Source: Alicyclobacillus acidiphilus NBRC 100859 (lineage in GTDB: Bacteria; Bacillota; Bacilli; Alicyclobacillales; Alicyclobacillaceae). From it: DNA of 64,000 bases. Positions 48,797 through 55,954 of the stretch are shown in pieces (position 1 is the first letter of the stretch; each line of letters begins with the position of its first letter). The stretch covers positions 1-64,000 of the forward strand of contig NZ_BCQI01000005.1 in assembly GCF_001544355.1 (NCBI RefSeq). The letters run 5' to 3'. The notes beneath the pieces are model-generated. The model worked only from the letters and a program-made list of their open reading frames with translations. It searched no databases and was not told the origin of the DNA. Position numbers and translations under genes: made by a program.

Positions 48797-48889
48797 GTTT
48801 GCAGGTTAGGTTCGCAAGTTCCGCCGAGTGACGTTTGCGCCCGCGATGGCATATACATGGGCGAACGTCACCCTGTGGAGGCATCAATT

Positions 48890-49393
48890 GTGATGGAACT
48901 GCAACGTCACGCAAAGTGGCATCCGAATCGCGTCCACGTAGCTTTTTTGGATGGTGCTACACCTGCAGGACCACTTGAGGATCGCAAATACACGGTTACC
49001 AAATCGGTCCGCACTGGACATTGGTATGTCAGCGTCGGATCGCGGTACAACGAGCAGCAAATCTCTGGCAGATACACCCGCTGGATGCGCGATGAAATCG
49101 TTGGCGAGTGGCTGTCTGAACATGAACTGAGATTTCACGTCCACGTCAGCGGCGGCCGCGTCTATGGCCGGCCAGCGATGCGCTACCGAAAGTTTCTGCG
49201 GGATCTTCCGTCAGCTCTGTACGCCGTTCGCTACGCGGACGCCTGCTTGGCGCAGACGATGCCGATCCTGGACGACGCCGAGGTCACGGTCGAATTTCAC
49301 AGCGACACCGACAAGTGGAACCAGGTGCAGTCGTTCGGGCGTTGGCGCGACTATAACAGAGCCGACCTTTGGAAATCTGTGTTTCGGAAGTAG
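48890..49393 (+). CDS. Staygreen family protein
   Basis: A protein of about 167 aa resembling the Staygreen domain: HPNRVHVAFLDGATPAGPLEDRKYTVTKSVRTGHWYVSVG, MRDEIVGEWLSEHELRFHVHVSGG, then RYRKFLRDLPSALYAVRYADACL. Plant homologues remove Mg from chlorophyll, and some bacterial ones have shown dechelatase activity; the role in a non-photosynthetic bacterium is open. The start is GTG 48890 or ATG 48893 (GGAGG upstream). Confidence 0.82.
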   Translation: MMELQRHAKWHPNRVHVAFLDGATPAGPLEDRKYTVTKSVRTGHWYVSVGSRYNEQQISGRYTRWMRDEIVGEWLSEHELRFHVHVSGGRVYGRPAMRYRKFLRDLPSALYAVRYADACLAQTMPILDDAEVTVEFHSDTDKWNQVQSFGRWRDYNRADLWKSVFRK

Positions 49394-50409: not shown

Positions 50410-50646
50410 TCAACGGTTGGATCGATACCAATTGTTCGTTGGGGGTTGAAATAAGCCCCGGCGTTTTGCACCTGTGTGAGCCATCTTGACAAGTTCGCGG
50501 ACTTTCTCGTCTCGGGCCACGTTGAATGCCAGTGAACCCAGCTTGATGAACGTATTCACTTTCACCAGGAACACCTCCTCGGTTTCGACACTCTCTTCGA
50601 TCATATGGATTTTCGAGACAGCATGTTCGACGAGTGGATTGGACAT
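50410..50646 (-). CDS. Small hypothetical protein (78 aa)
   Basis: Begins MSNPLVEHAVSKIHMIEES and continues with VETEEVFLVKVNTFIKLGSLAFNVARDEKVRELVKMAHTG, amphipathic and soluble. Codon use looks like that of its neighbours. The ribosome site before ATG 50646 is weak. It is divergent from the thioredoxin-like operon, with about 107 bases between the starts. No family is recognised. Confidence 0.55.
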   Translation of the reverse strand: MSNPLVEHAVSKIHMIEESVETEEVFLVKVNTFIKLGSLAFNVARDEKVRELVKMAHTGAKRRGLFQPPTNNWYRSNR

Positions 50647-50753: not shown

Positions 50754-51077
50754 ATGTTGCATTTGAAGTCGAACGACGAATATCGCAACGCGACGAAAGA
50801 AGGTCGCGTGATGGTTGAATTTTACGCGGGCTGGTGCCCGGATTGCAGCCGAATTGAGCCTTATTTCGACGAATGGGAGCAAAAATACGCGTCGGAGTTT
50901 ACGCTGGCGCGGGCGAATCGCGACGAACTGCCTGATTTAGGGGAAGAGTTGCAAATTCTCGGCATACCCACCTTTATCGCGTATGAAAACGGTCAGGAAG
51001 TGGCGCGGCTGTTCAGTCGCGACGCGAAGTCCAAGGAACAGGTGGAAGCGTTCCTCGATTCAGCGTATCAAAAGTGA
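50754..51077 (+). CDS. Thioredoxin family protein (YtpP-like)
   Basis: A 107-aa thioredoxin-fold protein with a variant active site, FYAGWCPDCSRIEPYFDEW (WCPDC rather than WCGPC), and the cis-Pro loop LGIPTFIAYENG. The WCxDCRxIEP pattern resembles Bacillus YtpP. It is the first gene of a probable operon with a CoA-ligase-like pseudoenzyme and thioredoxin reductase. Confidence 0.9.
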   Translation: MLHLKSNDEYRNATKEGRVMVEFYAGWCPDCSRIEPYFDEWEQKYASEFTLARANRDELPDLGEELQILGIPTFIAYENGQEVARLFSRDAKSKEQVEAFLDSAYQK

Positions 51078-51147
51078 ATCGGTTTCAGTGGTCGCCCTGT
51101 ATCCGGGGCGGCCTTTTTGCAGCATCGCCATGAAAGGGGACATACAA

Positions 51148-53031
51148 GTGTCATCGTTGGACGGATTTTTTCACCCGAAGACCGTCGCGGTCGTTGGCGC
51201 GTCACGCGGATCGGATAGGCTGGGGCACGTTCTCTTTCGACATATTCTCAACAGCGATTTTCGGGGCACCGTGTACCCTGTGAATCCGTCGGCGCAGTCC
51301 GTGGCGTCCGTCAAGGCGTACCCGAGCTTGCGCGACGTGCCCGAACCTGTCGATCTCGCCGTGATCGTCGTACCTGCCGTCCAGATTCTCGATGTGGCCA
51401 AAGATGTCATCGAAGCAGGCGTCAAGCACGTGATGATTGTTTCGTCCGGGTTCTCCGACATGGATCCGCCTGGCTTGGAACTCGAGCGCGAATTGCTGGA
51501 GTTGCTTCGTTCGGCAGGCTGCAGACTCATCGGTCCAAACAGCCTGGGTCTCATTCAAATGGATGAAGAGACGCGCCTGAACGCCAGCTTCGCACCGAAA
51601 GTGCCAGAGTATGGGCGGGTCGCCATCGCCTCGCACTCTGGCGCGTTGGGCATCACCATCCTTGACTATGCCGCATACATACAGGTCGGTATTTCCTCGT
51701 TTGTCAGCCTTGGCAATCGAGCCGATGTGTCAGGCAACGATTTGTTGGAGCATTGGGAGTCCGATCCCGGTGTCGACATGATTTTGCTCTACCTGGAGTC
51801 GTTCGGCAATCCGCGGAATTTTTCCAGAATCACCCGCCGGATCACGCGAACGAAACCCGTTTTGGCGGTGAAGAGCGCGAGAACCCCGGTCGGGCTTGAC
51901 GTGGCGGCGACCCGGACCATCGCCGTTGCTGCCGAGGACGCAACCGTGGAAGCGATGTTCCGCCAGGCAGGCGTCATCCGCGTCGATACGTTGCAGGAAC
52001 TGTTCGATGTCGCTGTGCTCTTGGGCGCCGGCCCCATTCGCGCAGGTCGCCGCGTCGCCGTCGTCACGAATACGGCAGGGGGTGCGGTGATGACGGTGGA
52101 TCGGCTGGTGCGCGAAGGGCTGCACTTCGTCTCGCCGGTGTTGAACATCGGCTTCGAGTCGTTGGCGGAAAGCTATCGGGTGATACTGCCGCAAGTCCTG
52201 CGCGATCCGTCGATTGACGCGGTGATCGTCCTGTTTACGCCGGTTGGGCCGACGAACGAAGAAGCGGTGCGCGTGGCCATTTCCGCGGCGCTTTGCGAGG
52301 TCGCGAACGATCCCCACGTGCCTGGCGAGAAACACCCATACGAAAAGCCCGTCGTCGCGAACTTCCTAACGACAGGCGACTATCGGGTGCGATTCCTCGA
52401 AGTCGATTCGGAACGCGAAATCCCGATTTATCCTTTTCCGGAACAAGCGGTCCGTGCGCTCGCGAAAGTGACTGCGTACCATGAATATCGCGAGAAAGAC
52501 CCTGGCATCATTCCTGAACTGTCCGATATCGACACTGCGCGGGCGCGCGATGTGATCGATGCGGTATCCGGCGCTGATGGACGGCGCATCGAGTGGCCGA
52601 CGGTTCGGGAGGCCTTGGGTGCCATCGGGATCGCGTCGGTCCCGGAGGAATTGCCTGGTGTCGACATGCGGGCCTTGTTCAATGTCGCCATCGAAACCGA
52701 TCCTCTGTTTGGGCCGCTGCTCCGTCTGCGCCTGGCCACGAATGCGAGCGGCGGCGGCGTGATCAAGCGAACCACGACGTCCATTCCAGCCGTCCGGCTG
52801 CTCCCATTGACCGATGCCGACGCGCGGGGACTCTGGGGCGAAGCCTGCCTCAACAGTCCGGATTCTGGATTGGAGGGGCACGAGCAAACTGTGATCGATA
52901 CGATGTTGAGACTGTCGCAATGGGTGGAGGACGTGGACGAGGTCGCGAAAGCGGACTTGCTCTTCACCCTGGAAGAGGGTCGAGCGATTTGCATCGGCGG
53001 TGAAGTGGAGGCCGTCCGCAAGACAGTGTAA
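51148..53031 (+). CDS. Acyl-CoA synthetase (NDP-forming)-like protein, probably catalytically dead
   Basis: A 627-aa protein of the ACD/Pat-like family. The CoA-binding Rossmann domain is at about 1-130 (KTVAVVGASRGSDRLGHVLF), and the ligase flavodoxin-like domains span about 150-460 (SHSGALG, SGNDLLEHWESDPGVDMILLYLESFGNP). Relatives carry SHT with the phospho-His in the segment VAATRTIAVAAED; here Arg256 replaces it. The ATP-grasp domain (from about 480) lacks its lysine and HKSD segments; only its end (ETDPLFGPLLRL...LLPLTDADARGLW) is recognisable. GTG 51148 with AAAGGGGA upstream. It may be a CoA- or acyl-CoA-binding regulator. trxB follows after 27 bases. Confidence 0.75.
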   Translation: MSSLDGFFHPKTVAVVGASRGSDRLGHVLFRHILNSDFRGTVYPVNPSAQSVASVKAYPSLRDVPEPVDLAVIVVPAVQILDVAKDVIEAGVKHVMIVSSGFSDMDPPGLELERELLELLRSAGCRLIGPNSLGLIQMDEETRLNASFAPKVPEYGRVAIASHSGALGITILDYAAYIQVGISSFVSLGNRADVSGNDLLEHWESDPGVDMILLYLESFGNPRNFSRITRRITRTKPVLAVKSARTPVGLDVAATRTIAVAAEDATVEAMFRQAGVIRVDTLQELFDVAVLLGAGPIRAGRRVAVVTNTAGGAVMTVDRLVREGLHFVSPVLNIGFESLAESYRVILPQVLRDPSIDAVIVLFTPVGPTNEEAVRVAISAALCEVANDPHVPGEKHPYEKPVVANFLTTGDYRVRFLEVDSEREIPIYPFPEQAVRALAKVTAYHEYREKDPGIIPELSDIDTARARDVIDAVSGADGRRIEWPTVREALGAIGIASVPEELPGVDMRALFNVAIETDPLFGPLLRLRLATNASGGGVIKRTTTSIPAVRLLPLTDADARGLWGEACLNSPDSGLEGHEQTVIDTMLRLSQWVEDVDEVAKADLLFTLEEGRAICIGGEVEAVRKTV

Positions 53032-53058: not shown

Positions 53059-54018
53059 ATGGAGCATCGGAAAGTCATCATTCTAGGAACTGGACCTGCT
53101 GGGTACACCGCAGCGATATATAGCGCCCGCGCCGACTTGGAGCCGTTGGTCTTCGAGGGTGACGAACCGGGCGGACAGTTGACGTTGACGACCGAGATTG
53201 AGAATTTCCCTGGCTTTGTCGACGGCATCATGGGCCCGGAATTGATGGAGACCATGAAGAAACAGGCGCAGCGTTTTGGCGCGACGTTCGAACGGGGCCG
53301 CGCCACGTCCGTCGATTTGAGCAAGCGTCCGTTCCGAGTCACGGTGGACAAGGAGCGCGAATACACCGCGGACGCGTTGATCCTCGCCACCGGGGCGTCG
53401 GCGAAGATGCTCGGCATCGAAGGCGAAAACGAGTTGATCGGTCGCGGAGTGTCCACATGTGCCACCTGCGACGGGTTCTTCTTCCGCAACAAGCGCGTCA
53501 TCGTCGTCGGCGGCGGCGATTCGGCGATGGAAGAGGCGACGTTCTTAACGAAATTTGCATCCGAGGTCGTGATTGTCCACCGCCGCGAAGAATTGCGCGC
53601 CTCGAAAGTCATGCAGGCTCGCGCCCGCTCCAATGACAAGATTCGCTGGGAATTGAACGTGACCACGCAGAAGGTCCTGTCCGACGGCACCAAGGTCACC
53701 GGGCTGCGCGTGGTCGACAACGCGACCGGCGAGACGCGGGACATTCCGGCGGATGGTGTGTTTGTCGCGATCGGCCATCGCCCGAACACCGACTTTTTGA
53801 ACGGGCAGGTCGAAGTCGACGAACTGGGTTACATCGTCACCAAAGGAAACACCACTGCCACGTCAGTCGAAGGTGTATTCGCCGCAGGAGACGTGATGGA
53901 TTCCCGGTATCGTCAGGCGATCACGGCAGCGGGATCGGGATGCAAAGCCGCGATGGACGTCGAAAAATACCTGGAAGGCGAAATGGCGCACGATTGGTCC
54001 GTGACCATGAACGCGTAA
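53059..54018 (+). CDS. trxB: Thioredoxin reductase
   Basis: FAD- and NADPH-dependent reductase of thioredoxins. IILGTGPAGYTAAIYSARA binds FAD, CATCDGFFFRNK is the redox CxxC, VVGGGDSAMEEA with HRREELRASKVM binds NADPH, and EGVFAAGDVMD is the second FAD block. ATG 53059 has GAGGAG 10 bases upstream, giving 319 aa. It is the last gene of the operon begun at 50754; a long hairpin follows. Confidence 0.96.
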   Translation: MEHRKVIILGTGPAGYTAAIYSARADLEPLVFEGDEPGGQLTLTTEIENFPGFVDGIMGPELMETMKKQAQRFGATFERGRATSVDLSKRPFRVTVDKEREYTADALILATGASAKMLGIEGENELIGRGVSTCATCDGFFFRNKRVIVVGGGDSAMEEATFLTKFASEVVIVHRREELRASKVMQARARSNDKIRWELNVTTQKVLSDGTKVTGLRVVDNATGETRDIPADGVFVAIGHRPNTDFLNGQVEVDELGYIVTKGNTTATSVEGVFAAGDVMDSRYRQAITAAGSGCKAAMDVEKYLEGEMAHDWSVTMNA

Positions 54019-54287: not shown

Positions 54288-55037
54288 ATGTATGGAAACC
54301 AGATGTTTGGCGGCCAGCCTGGCACACAAGGGTACAACACGCTTCGCCAGTTTGGCAGCAATCCGCAAGAAGTGAGATCCCACATCGCGAACGAGTTGTC
54401 TCCTTCCGCCACCAGCTTTGCCGGTTCGCCCATGCACGCAGGTGGGACCGACCCACGCGTCGTTCAGCAGCAGATCGCGCAGGATTTGGGCTACCACGGC
54501 GGTCAATCCAACTATTATGGTACGAATTCATTCTCCGGCGGCGGCTTATTGAGCCAATTCGGCACACATCCACAGATGGTTCAACAGCATATTCAGCAAG
54601 ACCTCTCTGGATACAACAACCAAGCAGGTTATGCAACCGGGCAGTTTGGCCAGGGCTCTGTCCAACAAGTCATGCAAAGCGTTCCGGCGCAAATTCAGGC
54701 GCATTACGGAAACGCCTCAGTCGGAACCCAGCATTACGGCACGCCGCAGTACGCTACGGCTCAGTACAGCACGCCTCAGTACGGTACGTCGCAGCACTAT
54801 GGCGCGGGGACGCTCGCTCAGTTTGGCACGCATCCTCAAGTCGTTCAGCAACATATCCAAAACGATTTGCAAAACCAGGTCGGGACCATCACGTCGCAGC
54901 AGGCCGGTGGTTATCAAGGCCAAGGTGGCGGCTACTACGCGACCCAGAATACCCCAAATGGAGCATTTGGCCAATTTGGAACGAATCCACAGGTGGTCCG
55001 TCAGCATATTCAACAGGACCTCGGCTATTACCAATAA
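54288..55037 (+). CDS. Repetitive Gln/Gly/Tyr-rich protein with FGTHPQVVQQHIQQDL repeats
   Basis: A 249-aa protein without signal peptide or membrane helix. A roughly 19-residue unit (QFGTHPQVVQQHIQQDL) recurs at about 19-37, 52-67, 88-106, 176-194 and 227-245, with a worn copy near 124-140. The linkers are Tyr/Gly/Gln/Ser/Thr low-complexity sequence (QYGTSQHYG). The GQFGT...QQ texture recalls gamma-type small acid-soluble spore proteins or coat proteins, but no SASP protease site is seen. GGGAG lies rather far upstream of the ATG. A strong terminator follows. It is a likely structural or spore protein; function unknown. Confidence 0.75.
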   Translation: MYGNQMFGGQPGTQGYNTLRQFGSNPQEVRSHIANELSPSATSFAGSPMHAGGTDPRVVQQQIAQDLGYHGGQSNYYGTNSFSGGGLLSQFGTHPQMVQQHIQQDLSGYNNQAGYATGQFGQGSVQQVMQSVPAQIQAHYGNASVGTQHYGTPQYATAQYSTPQYGTSQHYGAGTLAQFGTHPQVVQQHIQNDLQNQVGTITSQQAGGYQGQGGGYYATQNTPNGAFGQFGTNPQVVRQHIQQDLGYYQ

Positions 55038-55066
55038 GCCAATAGTGTGAAGCTAGCGTGAAGTGA

Positions 55067-55105
55067 CCGCTTGCGCCGCCGTAGAGGCGGCCAGGCGGTT
55101 TTTTT
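55067..55105 (+). terminator. Intrinsic terminator after the repeat protein
   Basis: CCGC...GCCGCC-GTAGA-GGCGGC...GGCGG followed by seven T. Confidence 0.9.
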
Positions 55106-55154
55106 GTCGCCCCGCGCGGTCGGAAGCGCGCTGACGCAGGCATGCCAGGGGTGG

Positions 55155-55261
55155 GGGAAGAGGGGAAGAGGGGAAGAGGGGAAGAGGGGAAGAGGGGAAG
55201 AGGGGAAGAGGGGAAGAGGGGAAGAGGGGAAGAGGGGAAGAGGGGAAGAGGGGAAGAGGGG
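55155..55261. repeat. Tandem array of GGGGAAGA
   Basis: About 13 copies of an 8-bp purine-rich unit. It ends where the inverted copy of the four-hairpin element begins. Confidence 0.9.
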
Positions 55262-55452
55262 AATAAGCGGTCCTGAGCCGCTTAAGTGTGTCGAAACAGA
55301 AGATTTGCGCTGAATAAGCGGCGGTGAGCCGCTTAACCTGCTGAAACCGCCCAGATTCGGGCGGCGGGAGAACAAATAGGCGGTCTGAGGCCGCCTATTT
55401 GCTTTCCATTTGGTCATTTCGGAAAAATAAGCGTCTGAGAGACGCTTATTTG
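55262..55452 (-). repeat. Four-hairpin dispersed element, copy 3 (inverted)
   Basis: Inverted repeats at 55264-55284, 55315-55335, 55375-55399 and 55426-55450, with centres 51, 62 and 51 bp apart. Read on the minus strand the order and linkers match copies 1 and 2 (GGTTTC; GCGCAAATC; TTCGACACACTTAAGCGG). A fifth small stem (CCGCCC/GGGCGG, about 55346-55363) lies in the long linker. CGCCAAC/GTTGGCG (about 55466-55483) follows. Confidence 0.85.
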
Positions 55453-55592
55453 ACCACTCATTTTCGCCAACCTTCGTTGGCGGTCGGCCAGGTGTCTCGG
55501 CTCCGCTGCGATCGCGCTGCCGTAAGGGAAATTATCTATCTTATTGCGGCCCAGGCGGCTCGGTTTTGCCGCGATCTCGGGCAGACGTGGGG

Positions 55593-55783
55593 AATAAGCG
55601 GTCCTGAGCCGCTTAAGTGTGTCGAAACAGAAGATTTGCGCTGAATAAGCGGCGGTGAGCCGCTTAACCTGCTGAAACCGCCCAGATTCGGGCGGCGGGA
55701 GAACAAATAGGCGGTCTGAGGCCGCCTATTTGCTTTCCATTTGGTCATTTCGGAAAAATAAGCCTCTGAGAGACGCTTATTTG
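55593..55783 (-). repeat. Four-hairpin dispersed element, copy 4 (inverted)
   Basis: Near-identical to copy 3 at an offset of 331 bases; about 260 bases (55262-55521 and 55593-55852) match with roughly four differences. One difference (GCGTCT to GCCTCT) falls in an arm of the last hairpin. This is a recent local duplication that includes about 70 bases beyond the hairpins. Confidence 0.88.
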
Positions 55784-55954
55784 ACCACTCATTTTCGTCA
55801 ACCTTCGTTGGCGGTGGGCCAGGTGTCCCGGCTCCGCTGCGATCGCGCTGCCTACACCACCCGCCCGCGCCACTCCGTTCACCTCCGCCCTCCAAAGAAA
55901 ATTTCGCGCTGGACCTGTGTTATGGCACAATAGCGGACAAGAGGAGGGTTTCTT

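Follow-up and report, generated by a model that had tools for sequence, protein, structure and literature searches.

What does a protein with the fold of an acyl-CoA synthetase do when it is encoded between a thioredoxin and a thioredoxin reductase? The question is raised by a gene for 627 amino acids in Alicyclobacillus acidiphilus NBRC 100859, located in the window analysed here (the whole stretch of 64,000 nucleotides, positions 1 to 64,000 of contig NZ_BCQI01000005.1). A first-pass annotation had described its product as a CoA-ligase pseudoenzyme, and suggested a sensor of CoA or acyl-CoA tied to the thiol redox state. The features of the locus are the following:

50754..51077 (+): thioredoxin with WCPDC active site, upstream neighbour (Pfam PF00085, E 5e-19; the reading frame opens at 50634)
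51090..51118 (+): terminator-like hairpin of 10 pairs with a loop of 4, then TTTTT, between trx and the 627-aa gene
51133..51147 (+): Shine-Dalgarno-like AAAGGGGA and spacer, similar, by sequence comparison, to the stretch around the start in L019, a GNAT-bearing relative
51148..53031 (+): GNAT-less type II Pat-like protein, predicted to be non-catalytic and NDP-forming acyl-CoA-synthetase-like, 627 aa, GTG start
51178..51552 (+): CoA-binding Rossmann domain, residues 11-135 (PF13380, E 4.5e-23)
51613..52020 (+): Succ_CoA_lig flavodoxin-like domain, residues 156-291 (PF13607, E 2.2e-48)
51877..51930 (+): vestigial swinging loop, residues 244-261, with Arg256 at the place of the phospho-His (alignment; pLDDT below 50)
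52528..53028 (+): lid-less ATP-grasp remnant, residues 461-627, the fastest-changing part
53059..54018 (+): trxB, thioredoxin reductase, downstream neighbour (TIGR01292, 407.8 bits, above cut-off)

The 627-aa ORF lies 70 bp from the gene of the WCPDC thioredoxin and 27 bp from trxB, the same gaps as first reported. Where GNAT-less relatives have their ATG, the alignment shows the GTG at 51148, and the Shine-Dalgarno-like AAAGGGGA stands ahead of it. Right after trxB, positions 54288-55037 (+) encode a Gln/Gly-rich repeat protein with repeats like FGTHPQxVQQHIQQDL and no Pfam match at E 0.01; in the g6 sister genus, and in loci of the genus itself, genes resembling it are likewise found 3' of trxB. 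An apparent duplication is located at 55028-55895, where the minus-strand ORFs 55028-55417 and 55536-55895 have a long identical run in common, and a short GRGEEGKR-type tandem repeat is found nearby. Positions 48857-49390 (+) encode a Staygreen-family protein (PF12638, E 4e-32); this family is named for plant chlorophyll breakdown, and the genus Alicyclobacillus is not photosynthetic.

Missing catalytic parts in a retained fold

The CoA-binding and ligase folds named in the first-pass annotation are indeed kept, as seen from the matches to PF13380 and PF13607 and from the superposition on ACD1 described below. The Pfam match to ATP-grasp is weak (residues 513-604, below cut-off), and the top NCBIfam match, to the acetate--CoA ligase alpha subunit (TIGR02717), reaches 375.4 bits, short of the cut-off of 567.

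Structure prediction and comparison with ACD1 and Pat structures, both proposed at the outset, were carried out, and the predicted fold matches both. The AlphaFold2 model, obtained with 43 aligned family members, has a mean pLDDT of 86.3 and a pTM of 0.86, with pLDDT below 50 in the swinging loop (residues 244-261), which in the model is probably disordered. It superimposes on the Nitrosopumilus 4-hydroxybutyryl-CoA synthetase 8WZU with a TM of 0.81, on ACD1 4YAJ with Z 40.5 (422 residues, 2.5 Å), and on E. coli PatZ 9isq and 9it0 with Z 35.0 each (581 and 573 residues, 5.6 and 5.1 Å).

In the passages of PMC11494057 on 8WZU, the ATP-grasp lid spans residues 503-577 and carries the ATP-side His 535, whereas His 256 is located in the swinging loop. 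The domains of 8WZU and of Korarchaeum ACD1 (4XYL and related entries) are the same as those of the window protein, but both are enzymes, and neither the loop H256 of 8WZU nor its lid with H535 is present in the window protein. Arg256 is the counterpart of H256, as the first reading of the loop had it, and the phospho-His column contains Arg in 31 of the 43 aligned family members and His in none. The family profile aligned to 8WZU covers residues 5-515 and 582-689 and leaves 516-581 without a counterpart. Both phosphoryl-transfer residues are therefore gone, since the column of the loop His has no His and the segment with H535 is skipped in the profile alignment. The earlier statement that most of the ATP-grasp domain is missing, with its tail left, can be refined: what is gone is mainly the lid (subdomain 3), and both flanks align.

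Compared with the ACD enzymes, the family has the CoA-binding and Succ_CoA_lig folds and lacks both the phospho-His and a complete ATP-grasp domain with lid and second His. Because the phospho-His and the lid are absent, the 627-aa protein should be unable to make acyl-CoA, and the first assignment as non-catalytic is well founded, in a gene that is conserved rather than decayed. Decay of a single copy had been raised as the alternative, with intact-His homologues expected in the same operon. None was found, as trx and trxB flank the gene in 15/15 genus genomes and His is present in 0/11 genus rows; the absence of the phospho-His and of the lid is common to the GNAT-bearing relatives described below. 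In the g6 sister genus (L047:6935-8833, L050:6731-8647) the swinging loop reads ASHRIGP, with a His two residues off the phospho-His position; a shifted phospho-His in that genus is conceivable, though with little probability.

Pat-like relatives and loss of the GNAT domain

A best match counted as an orthologue when its E-value was at most 1.1e-148; the gene ranked next, at 1.1e-117, is a second copy in G032. An orthologue is present in 47/59 genomes of the order (15/15 in the genus and 32/44 outside), and 4 of the 12 genomes without one are under 90% complete. Outside the genus, 33 loci from 32 genomes were read, and in every one the frame stays open on the upstream side, adding a conserved extension of at least roughly 180 aa. 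Pfam identified this extension as GNAT (Acetyltransf_1) in 5/5 proteins tested, three of them from outside the genus, and NCBIfam gave an acetyltransferase Pat match on the GNAT half in 2/2 proteins, far below the model cut-off. The GNAT assignment rests on these two sources, because the VIA-align rows of the GNAT-bearing model cover the synthetase half only.

In the type II lysine acetyltransferases a GNAT domain comes first and is followed by an inactive NDP-forming synthetase domain, as described in the relevant passages of PMC8556138 and PMC6456759. The relatives carry such an N-terminal GNAT, and the CoA-ligase identity given in the first-pass annotation gives way to a Pat-type origin: judged from sequence, the window protein is a Pat-type acetyltransferase reduced to its regulatory half, and not an orphan ligase. 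It has the non-catalytic synthetase-like half, with orthology by tree, and lacks the N-terminal GNAT; since this defining domain was looked for and is missing, the 627-aa protein is not itself a type II acetyltransferase.

Among the known systems, Streptomyces lividans PatA (type II, class I-alpha) has a C-terminal-side synthetase-like half without the catalytic His, as in the window family, going by the definition of the type in passages of PMC8556138 and PMC6456759. Within the order, the orthologues that carry a GNAT arrange their domains as the type II acetyltransferases do, and we liken them to SlPatA by its description. The window protein differs from type II enzymes in that it has no GNAT, an ATP-grasp without lid, and a synthetase half of ~630 aa instead of the ~900 given for type II in PMC8556138. 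The type I enzymes, E. coli PatZ and Salmonella Pat, have the fold in common with the window protein over 573-581 residues (Z 35.0), but their domain order is reversed, the GNAT is present, and residues 503-575 of PatZ have no counterpart in the window protein. In the passages of reviews that treat them, these enzymes combine an acetyl-CoA-binding half with the sirtuin CobB as opposing deacetylase.

In the rest of the class (398 genomes searched), full-length relatives starting in the GNAT part were found only in family f22 (G078, G097, G112, G126), and in other classes (299 genomes searched) relatives starting in the GNAT part are present in 7 genomes, mostly matching over a shorter stretch. 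Six of these seven GNAT-plus-synthetase proteins, all from the same phylum (L111-L117, from G425, G471, G509, G595, G542, G626 and G602), have open frames above 900 aa.

Within the genus, the GNAT is kept between trx and trxB in five of the 15 genomes (G003, G005, G006, G007, G013) and absent in 10, including that of the window. A contig scan with pattern seeds gave 8 named loci, all from Alicyclobacillus and with 67-77% identity, the wider reach coming from the genome searches; the GNAT is kept in L007 (A. suci) and L008 (A. fastidiosus), and no trace of the first GNAT motif was found in the other six (A. sendaiensis, sacchari, mali, fructus, hesperidum and tengchongensis). In GNAT-less genus genomes the synthetase half follows trx at 67-75 bp, in GNAT-bearing ones at 622-628 bp, and the GNAT-less ones still have the stem-loop and the Shine-Dalgarno-like region in place, which fits a deletion that began at the start codon and reached as far as the edge of the domain. 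Searched with the GNAT query, 9/10 GNAT-less genomes gave nothing at or below E 0.01, and G008 gave one weak partial match. The window genome has no match at this level, and a GNAT moved elsewhere in it was rejected. We also rejected a decayed synthetase and an assembly or frameshift artefact, as the same architecture is present in 10 genomes, without internal stops and with low omega. In four of the five GNAT-bearing genus genomes (loci L020-L023), an otherwise conserved SLYxRFF-like segment of the GNAT is altered and GNAT omega is still low; this is possibly a change of substrate.

The 10 GNAT-less genes form one clade in the synthetase-half tree (100/98), and for this tree the AU test rejects the window grouping with the GNAT-bearing genus rows (p-AU 0.0017). 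Of the species-tree proxies, RpoB protein (84/75) and RpoB plus TrxB protein (62/62) group the GNAT-less species, whereas rpoB nucleotides (15.7/45) and rpoB plus trxB nucleotides (85/83), with third positions excluded, place the window with the GNAT-bearing group. So does the TrxB protein tree, with support below 60 and without holding the GNAT-less species together. As the four rpoB-based trees disagree at weak to moderate support, a clean species tree for the loss was rejected. Taken together, the sequences favour a single event, in which one Alicyclobacillus lineage lost the GNAT by deletion at the domain border; separate losses on two occasions, or a transfer, are less probable alternatives.

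Constraint, deacetylases and the thioredoxin neighbourhood

In six close GNAT-less pairs (dS 0.31-1.46) omega over the whole gene is 0.018-0.032, alongside 0.018-0.044 for trxB and 0.027-0.098 for trx, and no internal stop is present in 10/10 GNAT-less genomes. In distant pairs near saturation (dS about 2-3), omega is 0.048 for L010-L013, and the two pairs that include the window reach 0.09-0.11, with 0.048-0.055 in the core; with pairs at dS near 2, the constraint on the window's own branch is loosely measured. The C-terminal 167 residues are 35% invariant in the ten GNAT-less genes, compared with 80-82% in three other regions, and this tail is fast-changing in the GNAT-bearing genus relatives too.

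The core-to-TrxB protein distance ratio has medians of 0.62 among GNAT-less genomes (44 usable of 45 pairs) and 0.61 among GNAT-bearing ones (10 pairs), whereas between the two groups the median is 1.00 (50 pairs). For the GNAT-less group (8 genomes), the ratio of stem to within-clade length is 0.336 for the core, 0.038 for TrxB and 0.061 for RpoB, on a fixed topology preferred by the synthetase half; a different true topology would weaken this excess. Seven sites are fixed in 8 GNAT-less rows and absent from 35 GNAT-bearing ones (C87V, A94H, V142T, R177Y, K224N, P298R, D370N), and at these sites most GNAT-bearing rows share another residue. An excess of substitution at the loss, followed by strong constraint, suggests a new partner rather than decay.

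The deacetylases of the genus also differ from those of its relatives. A Sir2 gene is adjacent at 21/33 non-genus loci, and a high-scoring Sir2 class (above 140 bits, a threshold chosen in this analysis) was found in 30/32 orthologue-bearing genomes outside the genus and in 2/12 genomes without an orthologue. In the genus this class is present in 0/15 genomes, and a second, lower-scoring Sir2 in 15/15. The AcuC-type deacetylase (PF00850) was found in 0/15 genus genomes, the control being matched in 9/14 genomes, including B. subtilis, and replacement by AcuC-type deacetylation was therefore rejected.

The check for conservation of the trio, also proposed at the outset, gave trx, the gene and trxB together in 15/15 genus genomes. 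The gap to trxB across the genus is 27-58 bp, except in G005 (535 bp, with a small ORF of 104 aa). Outside the genus, both g6 loci have trxB within 2 kb, with Sir2 between, and two g9 loci have a thioredoxin gene ~0.8 kb upstream; trx or trxB is clustered with the gene at only 4/33 non-genus loci, in flanks of up to 7 kb, some of them cut by contig ends. All 15 genus genomes have a stem-loop in the interval from trx to the gene, with an energy about 2 sd or more below that of shuffles in 14/15 and 1 sd in G005. It is followed by a clear T-tract in the window, in the hesperidum-like group and in 4/5 GNAT-bearing genomes; in the six-genome sendaiensis/mali/fructus-like group no clear T-tract follows. 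The case for the stem-loop rests on its position and conservation, because the fold of a longer window stretch around it (z −1.36, not significant) and a terminator consensus scan (2 sites, shuffle mean 4.4, no excess) are not above shuffles. As for cysteines, C383 is the only one fixed in all 15 genus genomes, with C125 and C615 also fixed in the ten GNAT-less ones, and Cys87, present in 34/35 GNAT-bearing rows, is Val in the GNAT-less clade. A redox Cys pair was rejected on this ground, and a thiol mechanism for the 627-aa protein is possible but unsupported. With a stem-loop after trx throughout the genus, one fixed Cys and the loss of Cys87, the proposed tie to thiol redox comes down to gene order.

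Possible function of the retained half

We favour the reading, to which we give a probability of about 0.62, that the protein is a GNAT-deleted remnant of a type II Pat, kept as a free-standing, non-catalytic regulator that binds CoA or acetyl-CoA and has its partner in trans. The ancestor would have been a type II (Pat-like) GNAT acetyltransferase, from which the catalytic GNAT was deleted at the domain boundary. By analogy with Pat, the remaining synthetase-like half most likely forms oligomers and still takes up CoA or acetyl-CoA in the Rossmann/flavodoxin cleft. Through direct contact it would report the status of acetyl-CoA to a separate protein, be it a client or a second GNAT, where Pat would address its own GNAT. 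The change of partner would have occurred at the loss of the GNAT and been followed by strong constraint. The predicted binding and relay by contact follow from Pat because its synthetase half binds acetyl-CoA and contributes to oligomerisation. In the passages of PMC8556138 on these enzymes, the synthetase domains of type I and II lysine acetyltransferases are called inactive and thought to sense acetyl-CoA, the N-terminal (synthetase) domain of SePat binds acetyl-CoA with a KD of 290 nM, and the exact role of the synthetase-like half in class I and II acetyltransferases is said to be not completely understood. The contribution of the synthetase half to the oligomerisation of Pat is described in a section of PMC6456759.

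Lysine acetylation could instead continue in a split acetyltransferase, in which the half activates a non-homologous GNAT encoded elsewhere. AcsA, the classic target of Pat, is encoded in 15/15 genus genomes, so that a possible client exists; the half is still constrained, and in the part of PMC8556138 on Pat the synthetase half serves the GNAT. We nevertheless consider this unlikely, as no candidate partner GNAT was found (in the window genome nothing related to the lost GNAT reaches E 0.01, the survey being confined to this GNAT family), and as both the linked Sir2 class and the AcuC-type deacetylase are missing in 15/15 genomes, in all of which the lower-scoring Sir2 is left. The sensor first suggested, coupling CoA or acyl-CoA to redox state and acting with thioredoxin and thioredoxin reductase, has in its favour the flanking genes throughout the genus, the nearby trxB or thioredoxin at the g6 and g9 loci, and the three cysteines fixed in the ten GNAT-less genomes. 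Gene order by itself is no proof of function, however, and the stem-loop, in part with T-tract, that separates trx from the gene, the rarity of such clusters outside the genus (4/33 loci, within the flanks given above), and a single Cys fixed in all 15 with Cys87 lost make it improbable.

Nor do the data favour a structural leftover on its way to loss, with no selected function. The fast C-terminal tail and the lack of an orthologue in 12/59 genomes of the order would agree with it, but the tail is also fast in the GNAT-bearing genus relatives, and the low omega in close pairs and the intact frames in 10/10 GNAT-less genomes leave it with very little probability. That the protein is a working NDP-forming acyl-CoA synthetase, with another residue in the role of the His or complemented by a separate ATP-grasp subunit, is hardly credible at all: the fold is retained and many core residues are invariant across the 43 aligned rows, but there is no His at the site in any of them, the ATP-grasp lid is absent, and the loop is variable and predicted with low confidence.

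Returning to the non-catalytic regulator with a partner in trans, the known kind to which it belongs is the type II Pat, and what seems new is a naturally GNAT-less, conserved derivative. A literature search of open-licence papers found no account of a GNAT-less Pat derivative or of the order trx-gene-trxB. For this protein family, names taken from synthetase models, such as acetate--CoA ligase alpha subunit, would mislead. A tentative and less probable extension is that of a stand-alone acetyl-CoA receptor, re-targeted in trans after the loss of GNAT and linked sirtuin, as the excess of change on the stem and the later constraint would allow, possibly to the TrxB encoded 27 bp downstream; if true, the status of acetyl-CoA/CoA would be linked to thiol reduction without covalent modification. 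One branch of this acid- and heat-loving genus offers a natural test case, in which the enzyme has been removed and the presumed sensor half, kept under strong selection, can be studied alone, and the sister species that keep the GNAT in an identical gene arrangement are a ready comparison for the GNAT-less half.
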